The notes below the pieces were generated by a model, which saw only the letters and a list, made by a program, of their open reading frames with translations, was not told the DNA's origin and did no database searches. From contig NZ_LMUM01000004.1 in NCBI RefSeq assembly GCF_009765985.1, forward strand, positions 1 through 64,000: a stretch of 64,000 nucleotides of DNA, given 5' to 3'. How positions within the stretch are numbered: position 1 is the first letter of the stretch; each line of letters starts with the position of its first letter. The position numbers were made by a program, and so were the translations under genes. The stretch is from Acidobacterium sp. S8 (GTDB lineage: Bacteria > Acidobacteriota > Terriglobia > Terriglobales > Acidobacteriaceae). Below, piece after piece: positions 10,480-47,015 of this stretch.

Positions 10480-13400
10480 TTGGATTTTTGCTGCAAATTC
10501 TGGACTGGTATCTGGCGCAAAGCCGTTCGCGGAGCAGGCACCCTCGTTCTGGCCAGCCTGTCCGTTTGTTTTGCACAGGCTACGCAGCCACAGGCTCCTT
10601 CCGATGATCAGGTCCAGTACAGCACCCTGCGCAGCTGGGCGGGGCTGCAGGTGGAGGCGGTGCAATTCAAGGGAATTGACGATGAACGGCTTGCTCCGCT
10701 GCCCGATCAACTCGCGCAGCAGCCGCACCAGGCGCTCGACCCGATGAAAGTGCGCGAGAGTCTGCGGCGTCTATACGAGACCGGCCTCTACAAGGACATC
10801 TCCGTGGAAGGCGTGCGTCACGGAAACGCGGTGACGATCATTTTCACCGGCGCACCAAATTATTTTGTTGGCCGCGTGACCGTCAACGGAGTGAAGAGCG
10901 AACGCCTCTCCGGTGTCCTGGAGCGGGCGACGAGAATGAACGCAGGCACAATCTTCACCGACAGCAAATTGCTCGAAGCGCAGAAGCTTATTCAGCAGAC
11001 TCTGGAGGGAAACGGTTACTACCAGGCAAAGATATTTGCCAGTACTACGGTTGACGACTCAAATTTTCAGGTAAGTGTCGCCTTTCAGATTGTGCAGGGT
11101 ATGCAGGTGCGAGTTGGAAATGTCGCCGTGCGGGGCGACGGCGACATGACGGTCGAACAGTTTCGAAAGAAGGGCAAGCTAAAGGAGAACTCGAAGGTCA
11201 ATCGCGATACGGTCAGCCGCGCACTGGGCCGCCTGCGGAAGAATTATCAGAAGAAGGACCGCCTTGAAGCCACTGTGAAGCTGGATTCGCGCGAGTATCA
11301 GCCGCCCGTAAATCATCTCGATTACGCCTTCACCACTCAAAGAGGCCCGCTCGTTCAAATTCTCGTAAATGGCGCCAATCTCAGCAAGGGAAAGATCAAG
11401 GATCTTGTGCCCGTCTACGAGGAAGGCACGGTCGATCAGGATCTGTTGAACGAAGGCGACCGCCGCATCCGCGATTACTTTCAGCGTGACGGCTACTTCG
11501 ATGTGAAGGTCACGCATGAAGAGGCGAAGGTCGACCCACAGCATTCCATCATTACCTTCACCGTCACGCAGGGCGTAGTGCACAAGGTCGTCGCAGTAAA
11601 TATTCGGGGGAACAAGTACTTCGACAACACTCTGATTCGTCAAAGATTGAGCGTCGAGAAGGCGACGGTAGTGTATCGGCATGGGCTTTACAGCCAGGCT
11701 CTCGGGCAGGCCGACGTGAACGCGATCGTCGCCCTTTATCAAAGCAACGGTTTCAGCAATGTGAAAGTGACACCGGAAGTGAAGGATATTGATACTGAGG
11801 GTGGAAAGCCTTTGAAAGAGGCCGAACTTAGCATTGACTACACCATCGATGAAGGCGTTCAGCAACGCATCGGCGCCTATGTCATCAATGGATCGGGCCA
11901 GATTCCACTGTCTACTCTTACCCCGCTGCTCAATACGCAGTCAGGCCAGCCCTATTCTTCGCTGAATATTGCACAGGATCGTGATGCAATCCTGACTTAC
12001 TATTTAAGCCACGGCTTCGGCAAAGTAGAAGTAAATCTGACGCAGAGGCCGTCATCAGCGAATGCGAATCTTATCGATATAACCATGGATATCTCCGAGG
12101 GCGAGCAGGTCTTCGTCAATCGCGTGTTGATCTCGGGGTTGCATTACACCCGTCCTACAACGATCGAGGACCGCGTTCTGATCCATCCAGGCGATCCTCT
12201 CAATCAGACCGCGTTGCTCGACACGCAGCGTAAGCTTTACGACCTCACGCTCTTTAACCAGGTCAACACCGCCATTCAGAATCCGCAAGGCTACGAGCTG
12301 CGTAAAAATGTGCTGCTGCAATTCACCGAGGCCCGGCGCTGGGCCCTCAGCTATGGCTTCGGCTTTCAGGCTCAGACCGGAAACCCGCAGAGCAATTGCC
12401 TCAATCCGTCTTCGCTGATCGCACTGGGTATTGATCCCTCGACCTACCACTGCAGCCCGAACGGAAATACCGGCGTCACGCCGGCCGTGCTGTTCAATGT
12501 TTCACGCATCAACCTGCGCGGCACCGACAAGTCCATCTCGCTGAACACAACTTATGGCTCGCTCGAGCAGAGGGTACAGTTCATCTTCTCCAATCCCCAT
12601 CTATTTAATAACCCTAAGTTCGATGCGATTCTTTCCGGCGGATACACGAATGCGCAGGATGTAACAACCTATGCATCGTCGCGCCTGGAGGGATCGGTTC
12701 GCGTGACCCATCACGTGAATAAGCCGAACACTCTGATCTATCTGTTCAGCTATCGCCGCGTAAAAGTCGATCCCAACAGCGTGCAGGTTGCGCCGGATGA
12801 AATTCCACTGGTCTCCGAACCGGTGCGCGTCGGCGGCCCCGGAATTACATGGATTCGCGACACACGCACGCCCACTCCTCTCGACGCCGTCAGCGGCACA
12901 TACAACACAATTCAGGAATCGTGGGCTGATTCGCATTTTGGATCGGAGGCCGACTTTAACCGCTTCGACGCGACCAACTCCACTTTCTACCGCTTCGGCA
13001 ACCTGAACAGGTGGGTCGTGGCTCGCAGTACACGATACGCCGCCGAGCGTTCTTACGGAGGAGAACAGTACCAGATGATTCCGCTGCCGGAACGGCTCTA
13101 TGCCGGCGGCGCGCAATCACATCGCGGTTTCGGCATCAACGCCGCTGGACCGCGCGATTCGGTGACGGGCTTTCCAATCGGCGGAGCAGGCGCATTTATC
13201 AACAGTACCGAGCTTCGCATGCCCAACCCGACGCTGCCATACGTGGGCAACAGCCTCGGCTTCGTGCTCTTTCACGATATGGGGAACGTCTTTGAGAACG
13301 CCTCTGATATCTGGCCCAGCTTCGTCCGCGTGCAACAGCCCCATCGAGATACCTGTAAAGACCTGAGTCTGGCTGACCAGGAAGTTCCACATTCTGATTC

Positions 13401-13635
13401 CAGCACTGGCGGAGCCGGGACATGCAGCTTCAACTATTTTTCCCATGCCGTCGGATTAGGTGCACGCTACCACACGCCTATAGGGCCGGTACGTTTCGAT
13501 TTCAGCTATAACCTGAATCCGCCGATTTATCCCATCATCTACGACTACTCCAATCCGACGAATCCGATTGAGAATCCGCATGTAGGACAGGCCGGCCATT
13601 TCAACTTCTTCTTCAGCATCGGGCAGGCATTCTGA
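10480..13635 (+). CDS. Omp85/BamA-family outer-membrane assembly protein with about seven POTRA repeats
   Basis: The 1051-residue product starts at TTG 10480 behind GAGGG and has a signal peptide (cleavage after CFAQA, about residue 36). Seven POTRA-like units can be read from their strand motifs: VQFKGID, GRVTVNGV, VGNVAVRGDG, VQILVNGANLS, VVAVNIRGNKYFD, GAYVINGSGQ and VNRVLISGLHYT (about residues 52-615). The rest (about 625-1051) is a 16-strand-type barrel with PERLYAGGAQSHRGFG, the family lid motif, and a C-terminal aromatic residue. BamA usually has five POTRAs and TamA three. The downstream SurA-like and tamB genes are coupled to it, so it could be the BamA or TamA equivalent, or both. 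Confidence 0.9.
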   Translation: MDFCCKFWTGIWRKAVRGAGTLVLASLSVCFAQATQPQAPSDDQVQYSTLRSWAGLQVEAVQFKGIDDERLAPLPDQLAQQPHQALDPMKVRESLRRLYETGLYKDISVEGVRHGNAVTIIFTGAPNYFVGRVTVNGVKSERLSGVLERATRMNAGTIFTDSKLLEAQKLIQQTLEGNGYYQAKIFASTTVDDSNFQVSVAFQIVQGMQVRVGNVAVRGDGDMTVEQFRKKGKLKENSKVNRDTVSRALGRLRKNYQKKDRLEATVKLDSREYQPPVNHLDYAFTTQRGPLVQILVNGANLSKGKIKDLVPVYEEGTVDQDLLNEGDRRIRDYFQRDGYFDVKVTHEEAKVDPQHSIITFTVTQGVVHKVVAVNIRGNKYFDNTLIRQRLSVEKATVVYRHGLYSQALGQADVNAIVALYQSNGFSNVKVTPEVKDIDTEGGKPLKEAELSIDYTIDEGVQQRIGAYVINGSGQIPLSTLTPLLNTQSGQPYSSLNIAQDRDAILTYYLSHGFGKVEVNLTQRPSSANANLIDITMDISEGEQVFVNRVLISGLHYTRPTTIEDRVLIHPGDPLNQTALLDTQRKLYDLTLFNQVNTAIQNPQGYELRKNVLLQFTEARRWALSYGFGFQAQTGNPQSNCLNPSSLIALGIDPSTYHCSPNGNTGVTPAVLFNVSRINLRGTDKSISLNTTYGSLEQRVQFIFSNPHLFNNPKFDAILSGGYTNAQDVTTYASSRLEGSVRVTHHVNKPNTLIYLFSYRRVKVDPNSVQVAPDEIPLVSEPVRVGGPGITWIRDTRTPTPLDAVSGTYNTIQESWADSHFGSEADFNRFDATNSTFYRFGNLNRWVVARSTRYAAERSYGGEQYQMIPLPERLYAGGAQSHRGFGINAAGPRDSVTGFPIGGAGAFINSTELRMPNPTLPYVGNSLGFVLFHDMGNVFENASDIWPSFVRVQQPHRDTCKDLSLADQEVPHSDSSTGGAGTCSFNYFSHAVGLGARYHTPIGPVRFDFSYNLNPPIYPIIYDYSNPTNPIENPHVGQAGHFNFFFSIGQAF

Positions 13636-14405
13636 TGATGAGACGGATACAGATACGAAGAGCCTGGCTGCTTGCAGCATTCGGAATCTGCCTGTGCGGG
13701 CGTGTCCTGGCGCAAGCGCCTGCCAATACTGCGCCGCCGGCTTCCGGCGAGCAGCCGATCGTGCTCGATCGTGTCATCGCCCTCGTCAACGGGGATGTGT
13801 TGTTGGAGAGCGATGTGCATGAAGAGATGCGCCTCGTCGTTTTGCAGCCCATCATCGCTCCGCAAGGACAGAATACGAAGGAACGTGCCGCGCGCAGACT
13901 CATCACCCGCAATCTGATGCTGAGGCAGATGAGAGAGCAGCAGCAAATCAAATATGCCGTAACCGACGACGAAGTACACAAGAGCCTTGCCGAGCTCCGC
14001 GAAGATCTTCCGGCTTGCAAAAGCGCTAAATGCACCACCGACGAGGGCTGGCATGCATTTCTCAAGGCAAACTTACTGACTGAGGATGAAGTAGAAGCCT
14101 ACTGGCGCCAGCGTCTTGAGATTCTCAAGTTCATCAACCTGCGGTTCGGCTCAAGCATCCGCATCTCGCGGCAGGACATGCAGAAGTATTATCAGGCGAC
14201 CATTGTGCCGACCTTTGAAAAAGAGAAGCAGAAAGCGCCAACGCTCAACAGCGTCGCCCCGCGGATTCAGGAGATTCTGCTCCAGCAACAGGTGAATTCG
14301 ATGCTGCATGACTGGCTGGAAAATCTGCGTGAGCAGGGCAGCGTGCAGATTCTCGATCCTGCTTACGGACAAAACAGCGGCTCTGACGATGAGGGTGGAG
14401 AGTGA
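13635..14405 (+). CDS. SurA-like periplasmic chaperone without PPIase domain
   Basis: The 256-residue product has a signal peptide (RRAWLLAAFGICLCGRVLAQ, about 9-28) and the SurA N-terminal fold: LDRVIALVNGDVLLESDVHE, a basic helix with RRLITRNLMLRQM, and ADLxE-like helices to the C-terminus. There is no rotamase (parvulin) domain, so it would act as a holdase for outer-membrane proteins rather than an isomerase. Its ATG overlaps the last base of the Omp85 stop codon, and its stop overlaps the tamB start by 4 nt. The position between Omp85 and TamB genes supports a role in delivering substrates to the assembly machinery. Confidence 0.85.
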   Translation: MMRRIQIRRAWLLAAFGICLCGRVLAQAPANTAPPASGEQPIVLDRVIALVNGDVLLESDVHEEMRLVVLQPIIAPQGQNTKERAARRLITRNLMLRQMREQQQIKYAVTDDEVHKSLAELREDLPACKSAKCTTDEGWHAFLKANLLTEDEVEAYWRQRLEILKFINLRFGSSIRISRQDMQKYYQATIVPTFEKEKQKAPTLNSVAPRIQEILLQQQVNSMLHDWLENLREQGSVQILDPAYGQNSGSDDEGGE

Positions 14406-17400
14406 GTACGCAGCCACTGCCGCCGCCCAGCGCGCCGCCAGCGCCCGCGCCAAAGAAGAAAGTGTGGCTGCGTGTGCTCGCAGTCGCATTTGTTGTTCTG
14501 CTTCTGCTGGTCGGCGGAATCATCTGGTATGCCTCTACGCAGCAGTTCCAGAATCTGGTGCGTGAAAAGCTGGTTTCGACCCTCGAGCAGGCCACCGGCG
14601 GACGCGTCGAACTCGGTGTATTCAAGTGGTCGATACGCCATCTTGCATTTGAGGCCGATGAATTGACGATCCACGGTCTCGAGGCGCCCGGCGAGATTCC
14701 TTATGCTCACGTCGACCGTATCTATGTCCGCATAAAAATACTCTCTTTCTTCAGTCCGAAGGTAGACCTGAATTACCTCGAAGCCGATCATCCAGTCATC
14801 CATCTCATCGTTTATCCGAATGGCTCGACGAATCAGCCCACTCCGAAAACCGAGAGTAGCGGCAAGCCGATAACGGACACGCTCTTTGATCTCAAGGTAG
14901 GCAGGACCGAAGTTCATAACGGCGTCGCCATCGTCAATCAACGCACAACACCTTTTAATCTCGCCGCCAATGATCTTGGCGTCGTCGTCACCTATGCTCC
15001 GCTGCGCGATCACTATCTGGCGACGGTGCATGCTGCCGACGTTGTAGCGCAGCAGGGAAAAGCGCCGCCACTGAATTCGCAGATTGATCTCTCCGTCGAC
15101 ATGGGCCGCAACACGCTCAACGTATCGCAGCTCAAGCTCCAGAGCGGATCGTCAGTCCTCACCGCAACAGCCGCCGTCAATGATTTCGCGAACCCGCAAT
15201 GGAATCTGGCAGCGCAGGGAAAAATCGACGTACGTCAGGTGATGGCGCTGGCCCCCGTGGACGGAGTGGACCGCGGCATTGTCGATCTCAACTTAAAAGG
15301 GCAGGGAACACGGACGCAATTTGTTCTCTCCGGCCCAATCCATGTCTCTGGTGCCGGTTATCACGTTGACACCGTGCGCATCAGCGGTATCGACGTGGAC
15401 ACGCAATTGAACGCAACCGAAAAAGAACTCGCTCTCGCCAACATCCGAGCACGCATCCCACGCGGTGGTAACGTAACCGCCGAGCTGCGGCTCACTGACT
15501 GGCTTGGCACGGCTCTCGCACAGCCCGGCCAGCCGTCTACGCCGTCTGTCATGCGGGGTACCATCCGCGCAAAGTTCAGCGGCATTACGCTGCACACATT
15601 AATGGCCACCGTTGCGCCGCGCGAATATCAAGAGCTCGGCTTCGACACAATAGCGGTCGGCACCGGAGCGGTCGATTGGACCGGAGACGCCTCCGATCTA
15701 TCCGCGCACGCCGCCGTTATTTTGTCGCCTTCAGCACGGACCCCCGCAAACGAGGTGCCGCTCACCGGAGTCGTAGACGCAACCTACTCTCAGAAGAACG
15801 GCAATGTGCAGATCAAGCAGCTGCAGGCGCACACGCCGGGTACGCAAGTGGACGTCTCCGGAGGCCTCGGTGTATACCCTGTCAGCCGCCCGTCGACACT
15901 GCAGGTAAATCTTGAGACGACCAATCTCGGTGAATTCGACGAAGCCCTTACAGCGTTAGGCGTCAGCTCGCAAGGAAAGAAGGGCGTGCAGGCGATTCCG
16001 CTGCATCTGCAGGGGCAGGCGCAATTTCACGGAACAGTATCCGGCAGTCTCGTAGACCCGGATGTAAAAGGCCACCTCGTCGCAAACAACTTCGACGTCG
16101 TGCTGCCTGCCGCAGAGCCCGCACCCGCTGTACAACAGGTGAGCGCGGCTCCTCCTGCGTCACCCACGCCGCCTGAGCAGCAGCCGACCGCGGCTCCAGT
16201 GGCTGCCGAGCGCACCATCCACTGGGATTCCCTCGTAGCCGATGCTGAATACTCATCGCGGCTGATCGCCATTCAGCAGGCTGTACTCACGCACGGCAAG
16301 ACATCCATTCACGCTTCAGGGCAGGTGCAGGCGCACCATATCTCTGCGCATCACGAGGCATTCGACGAGGAATCGGCAATCAGTGCCGACGTACAGGTGC
16401 AGAATGCTGCGATCGATGAGGTTCTGGCTATGGCGGGCCAGAATATTCCAGTCACCGGAACGGTAAATCTGAATGCCCGCGCAGGAGGCCAGATCAACAA
16501 TCTGAATGGCGGTGGCCATCTTTCCATTCAGGGAGGCCAGGCTTACGGCGAGCCCTATCACAGCCTGAATGTGGATCTGAAATTTGCTGGCGATGAAATC
16601 GCTATCGCAAAACTCACGTTCCTGCAGGATGGCGGCCGGATCACAGGCAGCGGCGGCTTCGGAACGCGCACAAAGCAGTTCCATTTCCAGGCCGATGGCA
16701 GCGACTTCGATCTTAGTCACACCGAGCACTTCAAAAGTGAGAAATACCCAATCACAGGCCAGCTTGTCTTTTCTGCAGAAGGTTCCGGAACCGCGCAGGC
16801 TCCGAACATCCAGGCCACAGCTCATCTGACAAAGATCACAGTAGGCAGTCAGCAGAATGGTGCTGTCGATCTTGAAGCCCACACCGACCACAACAATCTG
16901 CTCATGGCCGTAGCCGGACATCTGGGCACAGCATCGCTGCAGGTGAATGGACAGACGTCAATCTCAGGCGATTACACCGCACAGGCACGTGCATCGTTGA
17001 CGAACCTCGACATCAATCCTTTTCTCGAAATGTTCAACGTGCAAGGGGTGAAAGGGCACTCGTCGATCTCCGGAGTCTTGACCGTGAGCGGACCGCTGAG
17101 CCAGCCGCGTCAACTGCAGGGCGACGTGCAGATCAGCCAGCTCTCGGTTGCGCTCGGCGGCATTCCACTCAAGAGCGACGGACCGCTGCATGCTCGGCTC
17201 ACCAACGGCGTCATGCAGCTCGATCCGCTTCACATCACCGGCGACAACACCGATCTGCGTGTGCAGGGACGCGTCGGCATCTTCAGCACTAACCATCTCA
17301 TCAACGCGCACACGCAAGGCTCAGTCAATTTAAAGCTGCTGCAGACGCTCGATTCGACCGTCACATCTTCCGGTGAGGTCACCTTCACCGTGGATGCAAG

Positions 17401-18574
17401 TGGCAGCACAGACCGCCCAGAGCTGACCGGGCAGATGCAGTTTGCAAATGGTGCCATGAGCATCGAAGACGTTCCCAACGGCCTCAGCCAGCTGAATGGC
17501 ACACTTATCTTCGATCAGGATCGCCTGCAGGTAAAAGATCTCACTGGAGTCACGGGCGGCGGCCACATCAGCATCACCGGCTTTATCACCTACCAGCAGG
17601 GAATCTATTCCGATCTCACAGCCACCGGAACCGATATCCGTATCCGCTATCCCGCCGGCATTAGTTCCATGATCAACACGAAGCTGCGTCTGCAGGGCAC
17701 GCAGAACAGCCTTACACTCGGCGGCAGCGTTCTGTTGACGCGCTTTACCATCAGCCCGAATCTCGATTTCGCCAGCTTCGGCGGTCCCGCAAGCGGCGTG
17801 GCGCCTCCGCCTGATCCGAATGCCTTTTCAAATCGTGTGCGGCTGAATATCCACGTCACGTCTGCGCCTGAGCTCGATTTCCAGAACTCATTTGCCAAGC
17901 TCGCCGGAGACGTCGATATACGCGTGCACGGCACCGTCGCCCAGCCCACAGTGCTGGGACACATCAACGTCACCGAAGGTAGCGCCACATTTGCCGGAAC
18001 GAAATATCAGCTGCAGCATGGCGATATTTATTTCAATAATCCTGTGCGCATCGAGCCGACCATCGACCTCGACGCCACGGCGCACGTCGAGGACTATGAC
18101 ATCACTATCGGGCTGCATGGAACACCCGACAACTTGTCGCCTAACTTCCGCTCTGAGCCGCCGCTGAGCCAGCAGGACATCTTCTCGCTCTTAGCCATGG
18201 GCCGCACGCAGGAGGAGCAACAGATTTACTCCATGCAGGCACAGCAGGCGGGCGTCAATACCTCGGCAGACGCTCTGCTCGGCGGCGCGCTCAATGCAAC
18301 CATCAGCAGCCGGATTCAAAAATTATTCGGCGGTGGCAGCGTAAAAATCGATCCTTCCTGGGTCGGCTCGGTCGGCAACTCTACCGCGCGTATCACCGTC
18401 TCGCAGCAGGTCTCAAAAAATGCGACCCTCACCTACGCGACGAACATCAACTCAACCGCACAGCAATTGATCCAGGCCGAGGTCAACGTAACGTCGACAG
18501 TATCCGTTCTGGCGGTGCGCGATGAATCCGGTGTATTCAGTCTCTTGTTTAAAGTGCACAGACGTTACCGTTAG
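14402..18574 (+). CDS. tamB: TamB-type translocation and assembly module protein (DUF490)
   Basis: The 1390-residue protein starts at GTG 14402, overlapping the previous stop (GTGA). After a Pro-rich cytoplasmic tail there is one membrane anchor (about 22-44), then a very long beta-rich AsmA/TamB-like region, which in the family forms a hydrophobic groove for lipid transport or OMP insertion. A Pro/Ala linker lies near 575-600 (PASPTPPEQQPTAAP). The C-terminal DUF490 domain is clear in ATFAGTKYQLQHGDIYFNNP, IEPTIDLDATAHVEDYDI and LSQQDIFSLLAMGRTQEEQ. Coupling to an Omp85 gene matches known tamA-tamB pairs. Confidence 0.92.
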   Translation: MSTQPLPPPSAPPAPAPKKKVWLRVLAVAFVVLLLLVGGIIWYASTQQFQNLVREKLVSTLEQATGGRVELGVFKWSIRHLAFEADELTIHGLEAPGEIPYAHVDRIYVRIKILSFFSPKVDLNYLEADHPVIHLIVYPNGSTNQPTPKTESSGKPITDTLFDLKVGRTEVHNGVAIVNQRTTPFNLAANDLGVVVTYAPLRDHYLATVHAADVVAQQGKAPPLNSQIDLSVDMGRNTLNVSQLKLQSGSSVLTATAAVNDFANPQWNLAAQGKIDVRQVMALAPVDGVDRGIVDLNLKGQGTRTQFVLSGPIHVSGAGYHVDTVRISGIDVDTQLNATEKELALANIRARIPRGGNVTAELRLTDWLGTALAQPGQPSTPSVMRGTIRAKFSGITLHTLMATVAPREYQELGFDTIAVGTGAVDWTGDASDLSAHAAVILSPSARTPANEVPLTGVVDATYSQKNGNVQIKQLQAHTPGTQVDVSGGLGVYPVSRPSTLQVNLETTNLGEFDEALTALGVSSQGKKGVQAIPLHLQGQAQFHGTVSGSLVDPDVKGHLVANNFDVVLPAAEPAPAVQQVSAAPPASPTPPEQQPTAAPVAAERTIHWDSLVADAEYSSRLIAIQQAVLTHGKTSIHASGQVQAHHISAHHEAFDEESAISADVQVQNAAIDEVLAMAGQNIPVTGTVNLNARAGGQINNLNGGGHLSIQGGQAYGEPYHSLNVDLKFAGDEIAIAKLTFLQDGGRITGSGGFGTRTKQFHFQADGSDFDLSHTEHFKSEKYPITGQLVFSAEGSGTAQAPNIQATAHLTKITVGSQQNGAVDLEAHTDHNNLLMAVAGHLGTASLQVNGQTSISGDYTAQARASLTNLDINPFLEMFNVQGVKGHSSISGVLTVSGPLSQPRQLQGDVQISQLSVALGGIPLKSDGPLHARLTNGVMQLDPLHITGDNTDLRVQGRVGIFSTNHLINAHTQGSVNLKLLQTLDSTVTSSGEVTFTVDASGSTDRPELTGQMQFANGAMSIEDVPNGLSQLNGTLIFDQDRLQVKDLTGVTGGGHISITGFITYQQGIYSDLTATGTDIRIRYPAGISSMINTKLRLQGTQNSLTLGGSVLLTRFTISPNLDFASFGGPASGVAPPPDPNAFSNRVRLNIHVTSAPELDFQNSFAKLAGDVDIRVHGTVAQPTVLGHINVTEGSATFAGTKYQLQHGDIYFNNPVRIEPTIDLDATAHVEDYDITIGLHGTPDNLSPNFRSEPPLSQQDIFSLLAMGRTQEEQQIYSMQAQQAGVNTSADALLGGALNATISSRIQKLFGGGSVKIDPSWVGSVGNSTARITVSQQVSKNATLTYATNINSTAQQLIQAEVNVTSTVSVLAVRDESGVFSLLFKVHRRYR

Positions 18575-18705: not shown

Positions 18706-19497
18706 ATGAAAAATGTACTACGCAGTCTCACTCCTGTTTTCGTAGCTGCTTTGTTGGCGGTTTCGCCTGCGTTCATTCCCACCCCATCCACCATGGCCAT
18801 CGCTCAGGATGCGGGCAAAGACAACCAGATACTGGCCGAAGTTCAAAACAAGGCGCTCAATAAGTCGAAATTCAAAGATGTAAAAGCGTCGGTCGAAAAT
18901 GGGGTCGTGACACTCACCGGAACGGTAGATGTCTACGATACCAAAGCCGATGCCGACAAGCGTGCCCATCGCATCAAGAACGTGAAAGGCATCGAGAACA
19001 ATATTGAAGTCGAAGGCCCTGAAATTCCTGATGCGGAATTGCAGGATAAGCTCGTAAGGGCAATTCAGTATGACCGCGTCGGCTATGGAACCACGGCTTT
19101 CAACGCAATTGGTGTGCAGGTGCAGAACGGCGTCGTAACCCTCGGTGGTCATGCCTACGGTCCAGTGGATGCCGATTCAGCCGTCGCCGTAGCCGCCAAC
19201 ACCAAGGGCGTGAAAGACGTCGTCAACGATATCCAGGTCGATCCGGTATCGCCGATGGATGATCGCAGCCGCATCGCGGTATACCGCGCAGTATACGGAT
19301 TCCCCAGCCTGAATAAGTACGCCATCGATCCCGGCAAACCAATACGCATCTCGGTGCAGAACGGTAATGTCACGCTCTATGGCGTAGTCGACAGTCAGGC
19401 AGACAAGGACGCCGCTGGAATTCGTGCCAACTCTGTGCCTGGAGTCTTCAAGGTAACCAACAATCTCGTCGTCGCAAATCAGCCTGAGAAGAAATAG
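18706..19497 (+). CDS. secreted protein with three BON domains
   Basis: The 263-residue product has a signal peptide (cleavage near SPAFIPTPSTMAIAQ, about 25-36) and three consecutive BON domains (about 43-110, 118-188, 195-262), each ending with the typical turn GxVTLxGxV: VENGVVTLTGTVD, VQNGVVTLGGHAY and VQNGNVTLYGVVD. BON domains bind phospholipid membranes; OsmY- and DolP-like members act in envelope stress and outer-membrane integrity. It has its own terminator downstream (19519-19548). A ribosome site GGAG lies just before ATG 18706. No lipobox cysteine is present, so it is soluble in the periplasm. Confidence 0.88.
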   Translation: MKNVLRSLTPVFVAALLAVSPAFIPTPSTMAIAQDAGKDNQILAEVQNKALNKSKFKDVKASVENGVVTLTGTVDVYDTKADADKRAHRIKNVKGIENNIEVEGPEIPDAELQDKLVRAIQYDRVGYGTTAFNAIGVQVQNGVVTLGGHAYGPVDADSAVAVAANTKGVKDVVNDIQVDPVSPMDDRSRIAVYRAVYGFPSLNKYAIDPGKPIRISVQNGNVTLYGVVDSQADKDAAGIRANSVPGVFKVTNNLVVANQPEKK

Positions 19498-45011: not shown

Positions 45012-47015
45012 ATGATTCGTTTTCTTCAGAAGGACAGCCGCGCGGTGAAGGCGATCTTCATCGTGATTATCTCCGTAGCCTGCATCACCATGGTCGTCAC
45101 GCTGGTTCCCGGCATTTTCAGTGATCAGGTTTCCAGCGCGGATACATACGCGACCATTCACGGAAGCGGCGTCTTTGGCCGCATCTTCGGCTCCAGCGAC
45201 GAAGTTTCCACGCAGGAAGTACAGCAGCTCGCGCAGCGCATGCTGCAGCGTCAACAGCTGCCCGATTTCGTTCTGCCTTTCATGATGCAGCGCGTAGGGC
45301 AGGGGCTGATTCAGCAGCACATTGAATTGCAGGAAGCGAACCGCCTTGGAGTGAAGGTGACGGACGAGGATATTCGCTCGTTCCTGCACACCGGCATGTG
45401 GGGACAGGTGCTCTTTCCGAATGGGAAGTATGTCGGCGACGCGCAATACGCCAGCCTGGTGTCGCAGAACTTCGGTCTTTCCCGCGAGCAGTTTGAAAAC
45501 GAACTGAAGAAGGAAATTCAAGAAAACCGACTCCGTTCTTTCGTCACGGCTGGTATGACGGTTTCAGACCAACAGGTGCGCGAGTCATATCTGCAGCAGG
45601 GAACCAAGATCAAATTTGACTACGCCGTGATCAGCGCCGATGACCTGCGCAAGACGATCAACCCGTCTGATACAGAACTGCAGGCATTCTTCAAACAGAA
45701 TGCGGCGCGTTACGCAAAGGCGATTCCCGAGACGCGCAAGATTCAGTACATTGCCTTCAATACTTCCAACCTTCCGGGCGGCGCTCCGCAGGTCACGGAT
45801 GCAGAAGTGCAACAGTATTACAGCCAGCATCAGAAGGACTATCAGGTTGACGACCAGGTGAAGGTGCGCCACATCCTCATCAAGGTTGATCAGAATGCAG
45901 ATCCGAAAGCCGATGCTGCTGCGAAGCAGAAGGCAGAGGACATTCTGAAGCAGCTGCACAATGGCGGCAACTTCGCCGATCTGGCTAAGAAGAATTCCGA
46001 CGATCCGGGCAGCAAAGATCAGGGCGGTGAGCTTGGATTCCTCAAGCATGGCGTCACAGTGCCCGAGTTCGATAAGGCCGCCTTCGCGTTGCAGCCGGGA
46101 CAAACCTCAGACCTGGTACGCACCAAGTTCGGCTATCATATCATTCAGACGGAAGAGAAGCAGACTGCTCACACGCGGCCTCTGGATGAAGTGAAGCAGA
46201 CCATCGTATCTGTGCTGACACGCCAGAAGGAATCGGACGCGCAGCAGGCTTTCGGGCAGCAGCTGGCCAGCGAAGCGCAGAAGAACGGTCTGTCGCAGAC
46301 TGCTACTGCGCATCACCTGCAAGTGACAACGACTGACTACATCGCGCAGAATGCGATTATCCCCACGCTTGCCGACGGTTCGCAGATGCTGACCACAGCT
46401 TTCACGGCCAAACAAGGCGCTGCTCCACAGGTTGCATCCACTGGCGACGGCTATGCCGTCTTCCAGGTAGAAGATGTGCATGCGGCACACGCCCCGTCCT
46501 TCGATGAATACAAGTCGCATATTCAGGATGATTTCCGCGACCAGCAACTGCCGCAGCTTCTGTCTCGCAAGACCAGTGAACTGGCTGACAAGGCCAAGGC
46601 AGAAAACGATCTTGCCAAAGCTGCCAAAGAGGTTGGCGCAACAGTAAAGAGCAGCGATCTGGTGGGCCGCGATGCACAGGTTCCTGACATCGGACAATTG
46701 GCTTCAACGGCTCCGCAGCTCTTCGATCTTAGTGTTGGACAGATCAGCAATGCGATTCAGGGTCAGCGTACGGGAGCGGTCGTCAAGCTCACTCAGAAGC
46801 AGCAGCCGACGCCGGATGAGGTTCAGAAGAATTTCGACCAGACACGCGATTCACTGTTAGATCAGAAGCGCGAAGAGATGTTTGCCGTCTTCGTCACCAA
46901 CCTGACCGATAAGTACCAGAAGGAAGGCCGCATCAGCATCAGCAAGCGCGCGCAGCAGCCGGGGTTACCGGGAGCGCCCGGTGCTCCCGGAGCTCCAGGT
47001 GCTCCGCGGTCGTAA
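45012..47015 (+). CDS. PpiD/SurA-like membrane-anchored peptidylprolyl isomerase
   Basis: The 667-residue protein has one N-terminal span (about 13-34), a SurA_N-type chaperone region (about 60-270), a parvulin PPIase domain (about 283-385: VRHILIKVDQ, GGNFADLAKKNSDDPGSKDQ, GGELGFLKHGVTVPEFDKAA, GYHIIQTEE), and a second, degenerate parvulin-like region to ~600. It would fold outer-membrane and secreted proteins at the periplasmic face. The C-terminus ends in a collagen-like Gly-Ala-Pro repeat (GLPGAPGAPGAPGAP), which is unusual for PpiD. A TATAAT box is at 44914 inside CTCAT-N5-ATGAG. Confidence 0.92.
   Translation: MIRFLQKDSRAVKAIFIVIISVACITMVVTLVPGIFSDQVSSADTYATIHGSGVFGRIFGSSDEVSTQEVQQLAQRMLQRQQLPDFVLPFMMQRVGQGLIQQHIELQEANRLGVKVTDEDIRSFLHTGMWGQVLFPNGKYVGDAQYASLVSQNFGLSREQFENELKKEIQENRLRSFVTAGMTVSDQQVRESYLQQGTKIKFDYAVISADDLRKTINPSDTELQAFFKQNAARYAKAIPETRKIQYIAFNTSNLPGGAPQVTDAEVQQYYSQHQKDYQVDDQVKVRHILIKVDQNADPKADAAAKQKAEDILKQLHNGGNFADLAKKNSDDPGSKDQGGELGFLKHGVTVPEFDKAAFALQPGQTSDLVRTKFGYHIIQTEEKQTAHTRPLDEVKQTIVSVLTRQKESDAQQAFGQQLASEAQKNGLSQTATAHHLQVTTTDYIAQNAIIPTLADGSQMLTTAFTAKQGAAPQVASTGDGYAVFQVEDVHAAHAPSFDEYKSHIQDDFRDQQLPQLLSRKTSELADKAKAENDLAKAAKEVGATVKSSDLVGRDAQVPDIGQLASTAPQLFDLSVGQISNAIQGQRTGAVVKLTQKQQPTPDEVQKNFDQTRDSLLDQKREEMFAVFVTNLTDKYQKEGRISISKRAQQPGLPGAPGAPGAPGAPRS

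Follow-up and report, generated by a model that had tools for sequence, protein, structure and literature searches.

The TAM of Proteobacteria consists of an Omp85 protein and an inner-membrane TamB encoded by adjacent genes; in E. coli tamA and tamB overlap by 4 nt with no gene between them, and TamA is described as carrying three POTRAs (PMC4104836). It is not settled how clients reach TamB's partner, or whether the main cargo of TAM is protein or lipid. In Acidobacteria, Heinz et al. reported in 2015 a second BamA in an operon with TamB, which in some cases carries seven POTRAs, the third being divergent, and placed this operon as the origin of TAM (PMC4494059); that paper did not decide if the odd POTRAs are true domains, and the words SurA, chaperone, isomerase, fused and fusion are absent from its main text. 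Spirochaetes, according to the same source, have five POTRAs and the reversed gene order TamB-BamA, and for Borrelia a hybrid BAM-TAM has been proposed with a BamA-type Omp85 encoded with TamB (PMC13382580), in an account that names SurA only in its reference list. The SurA core is reported to account for most of SurA's chaperone activity but not for every phenotype (PMC2556385), and to bind BAM with an affinity like that of full-length SurA, residues 23-28 being the segment that adds to BamA POTRA-1 (PMC11366764).

The locus described here lies in a 64,000-nucleotide stretch (the window) of the genome of Acidobacterium sp. S8, a soil bacterium. As in TAM, and as in Borrelia, an Omp85 is encoded with TamB; this Omp85 has seven POTRAs, unlike those of Proteobacteria or Spirochaetes; its gene precedes that of TamB, unlike in Spirochaetes, and a further gene, M, stands between the two, unlike in E. 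coli. All three are on the forward strand: Omp85 at 10480..13635 (1051 aa, from a putative TTG start), M at 13635..14405 (256 aa) and TamB at 14402..18574 (1390 aa, GTG start). Omp85 and M have 1 nt in common at the junction TGATG, and M and TamB 4 nt at the junction GTGA, which confirms the single overlapping operon given in the preliminary description, whose coordinates are right. Among 80 Acidobacteriaceae loci picked by Omp85 similarity alone, 75 keep the order Omp85-M-TamB and the remaining five run into contig ends, so the arrangement is not a chance one. A three-BON protein is encoded downstream of TamB (18706-19497); it was rejected as a part of the module, being within 1.5 kb of TamB in only 36 of the 64 loci with room for it.

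A signal peptide can be read by eye inside the first ~40 residues of Omp85, and Pfam (E up to 10) finds seven POTRA stretches followed by an Omp85 barrel. A stricter whole-genome Pfam search recovers six of the seven, and the seventh therefore rests on the AlphaFold2 model (mean pLDDT 85.3), in which seven beta-alpha-alpha-beta-beta units precede a barrel of 16 strands by our count. In model residues these are POTRA1 (57-126; 10648..10857), POTRA2 (129-205; 10864..11094), POTRA3 (211-287; 11110..11340), POTRA4 (291-363; 11350..11568), POTRA5 (368-457; 11581..11850), POTRA6 (463-539; 11866..12096, from Pfam and model) and POTRA7 (545-617; 12112..12330), which adjoins the barrel (12340..13632, from Pfam and model). 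The seven POTRA-like motifs that had been noticed from the sequence, with structure prediction suggested as the way to count them, are thus all kept, and the model supports all seven as genuine domains. Aligned over its whole length, E. coli BamA matches Omp85 at POTRA1-2 and then again at the barrel-side POTRAs, POTRA3 being the poorest profile match, and POTRA1-2 would therefore be the equivalents of the SurA dock; this equivalence is drawn solely from the whole-length alignment, assignment of single POTRAs to BamA by hhalign being too noisy.

By NCBIfam models Omp85 is a BamA (314.9 bits against TIGR03303, cut-off 297.15) and falls far below the TamA cut-off (78.3 against 625), with seven POTRAs in place of BamA's five. 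Such scores, and the hybrid proposed for Borrelia, favour the suggestion of the preliminary description that one Omp85 serves both as main insertase and as TamB partner. Against it, the genome has a second Omp85 (at C25) with five POTRAs, followed by an OmpH-family gene, and this answers the search for a second bamA that had been proposed; C27 encodes a BamD-like protein of the YfiO type (102.5 bits in one search, 99.6 in another), and both C27 and C29 encode SurA-type proteins that include rotamase domains, so the genome already has the means for general assembly. A canonical bamA-bamD set together with a three-POTRA tamA had been named as what would count against the shared role: the former is present, and no three-POTRA TamA was found in the genome. 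A hybrid of the Borrelia type has no BamA other than the Omp85 linked to TamB, whereas here there are two Omp85 proteins, and we rejected a hybrid as highly improbable.

M has a signal peptide, read by eye. Its SurA-N matches in Pfam (E up to 10) are weak and below cut-off, and no rotamase domain appears in that search or in the structural model (pLDDT 86.8), which is that of a SurA core without PPIase domain, as had been read from the sequence. Structural alignment pairs residues 44-240 of the model with SurA 25-426 in 8pzv_F (Z 12.5, 168 residues, 3.6 A), a chain of 175 modelled residues in which the PPIase domains are absent; Foldseek gives E 7.8e-6 for the same pair, and a profile comparison with 8pz1_F gives E 4.7e-11. 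By its model, then, M has the SurA core fold, an N-terminal domain plus a C-terminal helix, and it has an N-terminal strand motif in common with E. coli SurA, a protein from which M differs in lacking both PPIase domains, in its place in the TamB operon and in a kept cysteine pair (Cys128 in 62 and Cys133 in 64 of 65 homologues). The N-terminal strand, with consensus VVLDRVVAVVNG, aligns with the start of mature SurA, which we take to be the site of the segment that adds to BamA POTRA-1.

Weak Pfam matches and low identity across the phylum (only ~20-27% to the window's M outside Acidobacteriaceae) might point to a decaying, functionless SurA copy retained by the operon alone. We find this hardly credible: by our own count a full-length M-profile match without PPIase insert is found in at least ~102 of 199 phylum genomes, and the matched stretch is free of stops in at least ~91 of those ~102, other stops perhaps lying upstream of the start; moreover, the model is confident, the family has near-invariant residues, the two cysteines among them, and M survives at separate loci.

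Sixty loci fetched across the phylum at matches to the M query include 14 with the order Omp85-M-TamB, 29 with TamB-Omp85-M and three with M and Omp85 at a contig end. In the other 14 the match stands alone: M is unlinked in 12, one match lies at a contig end, and one (L086) we rejected as a lone M, since a long insert in the match marks it as a longer SurA-type protein. M is a steady third member of the TamB-Omp85 operon in Acidobacteriaceae, and across the rest of the phylum it occurs in either of two gene orders or away from the operon. The 12 unlinked genes, some of them by our reading near murA-like or other housekeeping genes, would suit a general periplasmic chaperone that happens to share the operon and works with canonical BamA no less than with the TamB partner, the extra POTRAs being unrelated; that BamA is bound by SurA cores (PMC11366764) favours this too. 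Against this, both gene orders preserve the linkage, as do the 75 family loci, and of the 11 unlinked-M genomes examined 10 retain an Omp85 that is linked to TamB and has a seven-POTRA arm (fused to TamB in two, and split over two frames in L221); in the eleventh (L228) TamB stands alone.

Compared by genome, M occurs with a seven-POTRA partner in 66 genomes and with only a five-POTRA fusion among the fetched partners in six, in five of which M lies ~3 kb from an unfused TamB, with room for an Omp85; four genomes (G011, G027, G115 and G192) have seven POTRAs and no M that we found, and 21 have neither. The Fisher test of this association (p 2.7e-12) takes no account of shared ancestry, and its sample includes many M genomes chosen for having M, as well as three exceptions, out of the four, that we put in manually; simple inheritance of one operon, or its loss, could explain much of the association. 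A further apparent exception, G120, was discarded because the two parts of its M lie at the ends of two contigs. A strict one-to-one relation fails on the four exceptions, which also speak for the general chaperone, an explanation we regard on balance as unlikely.

TamB has an N-terminal membrane anchor, read by eye (14462..14539), and a C-terminal PF04357 domain (17540..18556; 132 bits, cut-off 22.4), which bears out the link to TamB directly after M; with an Omp85 partner encoded alongside, these are features shared with TAM. No second TamB was found in the genome. In other Acidobacteriota we find TamB-Omp85 fusions, 41 frames in 37 genomes, which appear to have arisen more than once, the one-clade test having used 36 rows chosen out of 114 and groups defined once the tree had been inspected. 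In 38 of the 41, 12-55 residues separate TamB from the POTRA arm. The Omp85 part begins at POTRA3 in 33 of the 41, so that POTRA1-2, the equivalents of SurA's dock on BamA, are missing, and M stands beside none of the 41 frames. M does not track fusion as such, an idea we rejected: two clear fusions (G029 and G042) keep all seven POTRAs, and both genomes carry an unlinked M. In 14 genomes that have M, fusions lacking POTRA1-2 are present as well, as a second system. No earlier account of a TamB-Omp85 fusion or of a SurA-like gene in the operon was found in the openly accessible journal papers searched.

We favour a three-part, TAM-like envelope module of Acidobacteriota in which M is a dedicated SurA-like chaperone on POTRA1-2, with a probability of roughly 0.6. 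The seven-POTRA Omp85 would be a BamA paralogue in the position of TamA, bridged by TamB from its anchor in the inner membrane, and M a dedicated periplasmic chaperone, a SurA core that lacks the two PPIase domains. We infer that the N-terminal strand of M extends the edge of POTRA1 in the manner of SurA on BamA; unfolded barrel proteins would thereby be parked by M on POTRA1-2, while TamB would join the rest of the arm further along; the client, or lipid by way of the TamB groove, would then be handed on to the barrel. In Borrelia the TamB DUF490 domain is reported to bind BamA POTRA2 and not POTRA1 (PMC11361582), so POTRA2 may be shared, and TamB may chiefly move phospholipid rather than protein. 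A wider version, which we hold tentatively and at somewhat less than even odds, is that of a three-part TAM with a PPIase-free SurA core fixed on POTRA1-2, whose two-part bridge was repeatedly fused into a TamB-POTRA-barrel protein spanning both membranes, loss of the chaperone being accompanied by loss of its two docking POTRAs.

The fusions offer a natural construct with TamB and the POTRA arm as one chain. They can test the structure of the E. coli TamAB hybrid barrel, in which the last strand of TamB is reported to pair with the first barrel strand (PMC12800296): if so, the short linker of a fusion must reach back to the distal POTRA. Were the reading above true, the fusions would amount to a naturally occurring TAM in a single chain and would serve as a fixed ruler for the position of TamB's end along the POTRA arm, and a chaperone core fixed in the operon would mean that at least this TAM handles unfolded outer-membrane proteins.

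The overlapping Omp85, SurA-like and TamB genes of the preliminary description are borne out by gene calls, which place the Omp85 gene at 10480-13635, that of the middle protein, M, at 13635-14405 and that of TamB at 14402-18574, all on the + strand, with junction sequences TGATG and GTGA. At E up to 10, Pfam recovered seven POTRA stretches and an Omp85 domain in the first product, a weak SurA-N match in M and a TamB domain in the third. The genome (5.44 Mb, 99.99% complete; the window is from contig C6) holds one TamB, a BamD-like YfiO protein and only two Omp85 proteins; the second, recovered by the proposed search for another bamA, has five POTRAs, and its gene precedes one of the OmpH family. 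No three-POTRA TamA was found in this genome, where above-cut-off POTRA matches were confined to the two Omp85 proteins. Rotamase-bearing SurA-type proteins are encoded on contigs C27 and C29 and at 45225-46154 of the window, the last of which we take to be PpiD-like. Just downstream of TamB, 18706-19497 encodes a three-BON-domain protein, and a similar gene lies within 1.5 kb of TamB in 36 of the 64 family loci with room.

The suggested count of about seven POTRAs holds in an AlphaFold2 model built from 55 aligned sequences, in which seven beta-alpha-alpha-beta-beta units (block pLDDT 84-96), POTRA1 to POTRA7, occupy residues 57-126, 129-205, 211-287, 291-363, 368-457, 463-539 and 545-617, ahead of a 16-strand barrel (counted by eye). 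A stricter genome-wide search recovered six of these, and eight relatives gave five or six apiece at E up to 0.01. The protein passed the NCBIfam BamA model and missed the TamA model by far; its closest folds belong to BamA chains of E. coli (E 3e-44), the low TM of 0.38 by query length being expected because the Omp85 arm is longer and bent. Whole-length alignments set BamA POTRA1-2 on Omp85 POTRA1-2 and the last three on the last three, the extra stretch being about POTRA3-4. POTRA3 matches E. coli BamA least well by profile, in line with a 2015 remark (PMC4494059) that the third POTRA of seven-POTRA Acidobacteria BamA diverges and may not be a POTRA at all; the predicted structure supports a real domain.

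M, described as SurA-like without a PPIase domain, proved so by profile comparison (65 sequences): positions 44-189 match the SurA N domain (PDB 8pz1_F 41-181, E 4.7e-11), 214-246 match the C-terminal segment 417-449 below threshold, and the alignment skips both PPIase domains. Its model matches the SurA core 8pzv_F in Foldseek (E 7.8e-6, TM 0.75 by target length) and VIA (Z 12.5, 3.6 A, 168 residues), tied with the top VIA row, Leptospira LIC12922 (Z 12.9); helical bundles may reach such Z by chance, but all rows with Z of at least 8 are SurA-, PrsA- or PPIase-type. Asp45 is conserved in 63/65 sequences and Leu57, Ser59 and Asp60 in all 65. The near-invariant pair Cys128 (62/65) and Cys133 (64/65) could form a disulphide.

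Among 80 loci chosen by Omp85 profile alone, 75 carry Omp85-M-TamB, three with either TamB or Omp85 split between two frames and several with TamB leaving the contig; two others read Omp85-M to a contig end and three are cut inside or just after Omp85. Most named records matched by the Omp85 profile belong to Acidobacteriaceae (e.g. Acidipila, Silvibacterium, Edaphobacter, Granulicella). A single-sequence search with M hit 119/199 phylum genomes (E up to 0.01, full SurA matches included) and the profile 197/199, many extra matches being longer SurA-type proteins matched in the N domain alone; full-length, insert-free M occurs in at least about 102/199 among the matches listed. At 60 loci selected from all M matches, the order was Omp85-M-TamB in 14 and TamB-Omp85-M in 29, with Omp85 at contig ends in three; the match stood alone in 14 (12 unlinked M, a longer SurA-type protein, L086, and L076, which lies at a contig end). 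The unlinked M genes of L068, L064 and L094 lie near a murA-like frame, as read from sequence. Genomes lacking a full-length M row supplied a further 20 TamB loci, which comprised three TamB-Omp85-M with diverged M, nine fusions of TamB and Omp85 in one chain, one unfused seven-POTRA pair without M, five with Omp85 cut or matching only from about POTRA5, and two TamB alone.

Such fusions number 41 open frames in 37 Acidobacteriota genomes (three leave the 5' end and two the 3' end), for example L205 811-6930, L210 5383-11847, L214 5414-11620 and L217 5211-12032. Pfam gives the order TamB, POTRAs, barrel in six, and 32 of the 38 with an intact 5' end have a 19-residue segment of hydropathy >1.8 within the first 150 residues. 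Linkers measure 12-55 residues in 38/41 (outliers -6, 65 and 294). The Omp85 part begins at POTRA3 in 33/41 (profile 192-203, about window residue 204-215); other starts are at 173, 265, 279, 519 and 524 (one of the last two frames being truncated 5') and, weakly and unclearly, at 101 (G011). Two fusions, starting at 27 and 42, keep all seven POTRAs (G029, L223 4282-11568; G042, L222 5196-12401), and both genomes hold unlinked M. Within the stretches taken around each fusion, no M match lay beside any of the 41.

These fusions arose more than once: on a 114-row tree of the barrel, the fused/unfused label needs five changes, and a single clade was rejected with all fusions (p-AU 8e-61) and without the two seven-POTRA ones (p-AU 8e-21), in a 36-row subset with groups named after the tree was seen. 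One (L230, G009) is a separate fusion within a seven-POTRA clade and also has a late start, at 279. E. coli TamA groups, on a long branch (support 85-91), with five acidobacterial TamB-linked Omp85s. These (L198, L200, L201, L202 and L204, the last cut by the end of its stretch) aligned only from about POTRA5, and may represent genuine TAMs of the TamA type within this phylum.

Across 97 genomes, M and seven POTRAs co-occur in 66, M stands without seven in six, seven without M in four, and 21 have neither (18 with fusions, three with a shorter partner). The Fisher test on this table (p 2.7e-12) ignores shared ancestry, and many of the M loci were chosen for carrying M. In five of the six genomes with M but without seven POTRAs, roughly 3 kb separate M from an unfused TamB outside the stretches taken. 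The table covers rows other than G152 and 5'-cut ones without an N-terminus (including the G035 and G193 fusions); G011, G027 and G115 were entered by hand as seven-POTRA from whole-length alignment, and M status came from profile rows plus locus-level assignment for G014, G151, G175 and G120. SurA docks on BamA POTRA-1 with its core contacting POTRA-2 (PMC11366764), and TamA POTRA1 docks TamB (PMC4525385). We favour, at a probability of roughly 0.58, a TAM with its own SurA-like chaperone, in which M would sit on POTRA1-2 and TamB would meet the arm beyond them; direct joining of TamB to POTRA3 fits this proposed binding. M may instead be a general periplasmic chaperone that shares the operon by chance and serves canonical BamA as much, which we consider rather unlikely. 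Fourteen genomes with M also hold a fusion starting at or beyond profile 173, and therefore fusion and module can coexist; because these fusions lack POTRA1-2, and because Borrelia TamB DUF490 binds BamA POTRA2, not POTRA1 (PMC11361582), we place slightly less weight on M at POTRA1-2 and more on a general chaperone.

A second BamA-TamB operon, with seven POTRAs in some members, is already known (PMC4494059). Neither a PPIase-free SurA core as steady third gene nor TamB-Omp85 fusions were found in the literature searched. The core of the system is published already; the third subunit and the fusions are the new part, and both are testable.
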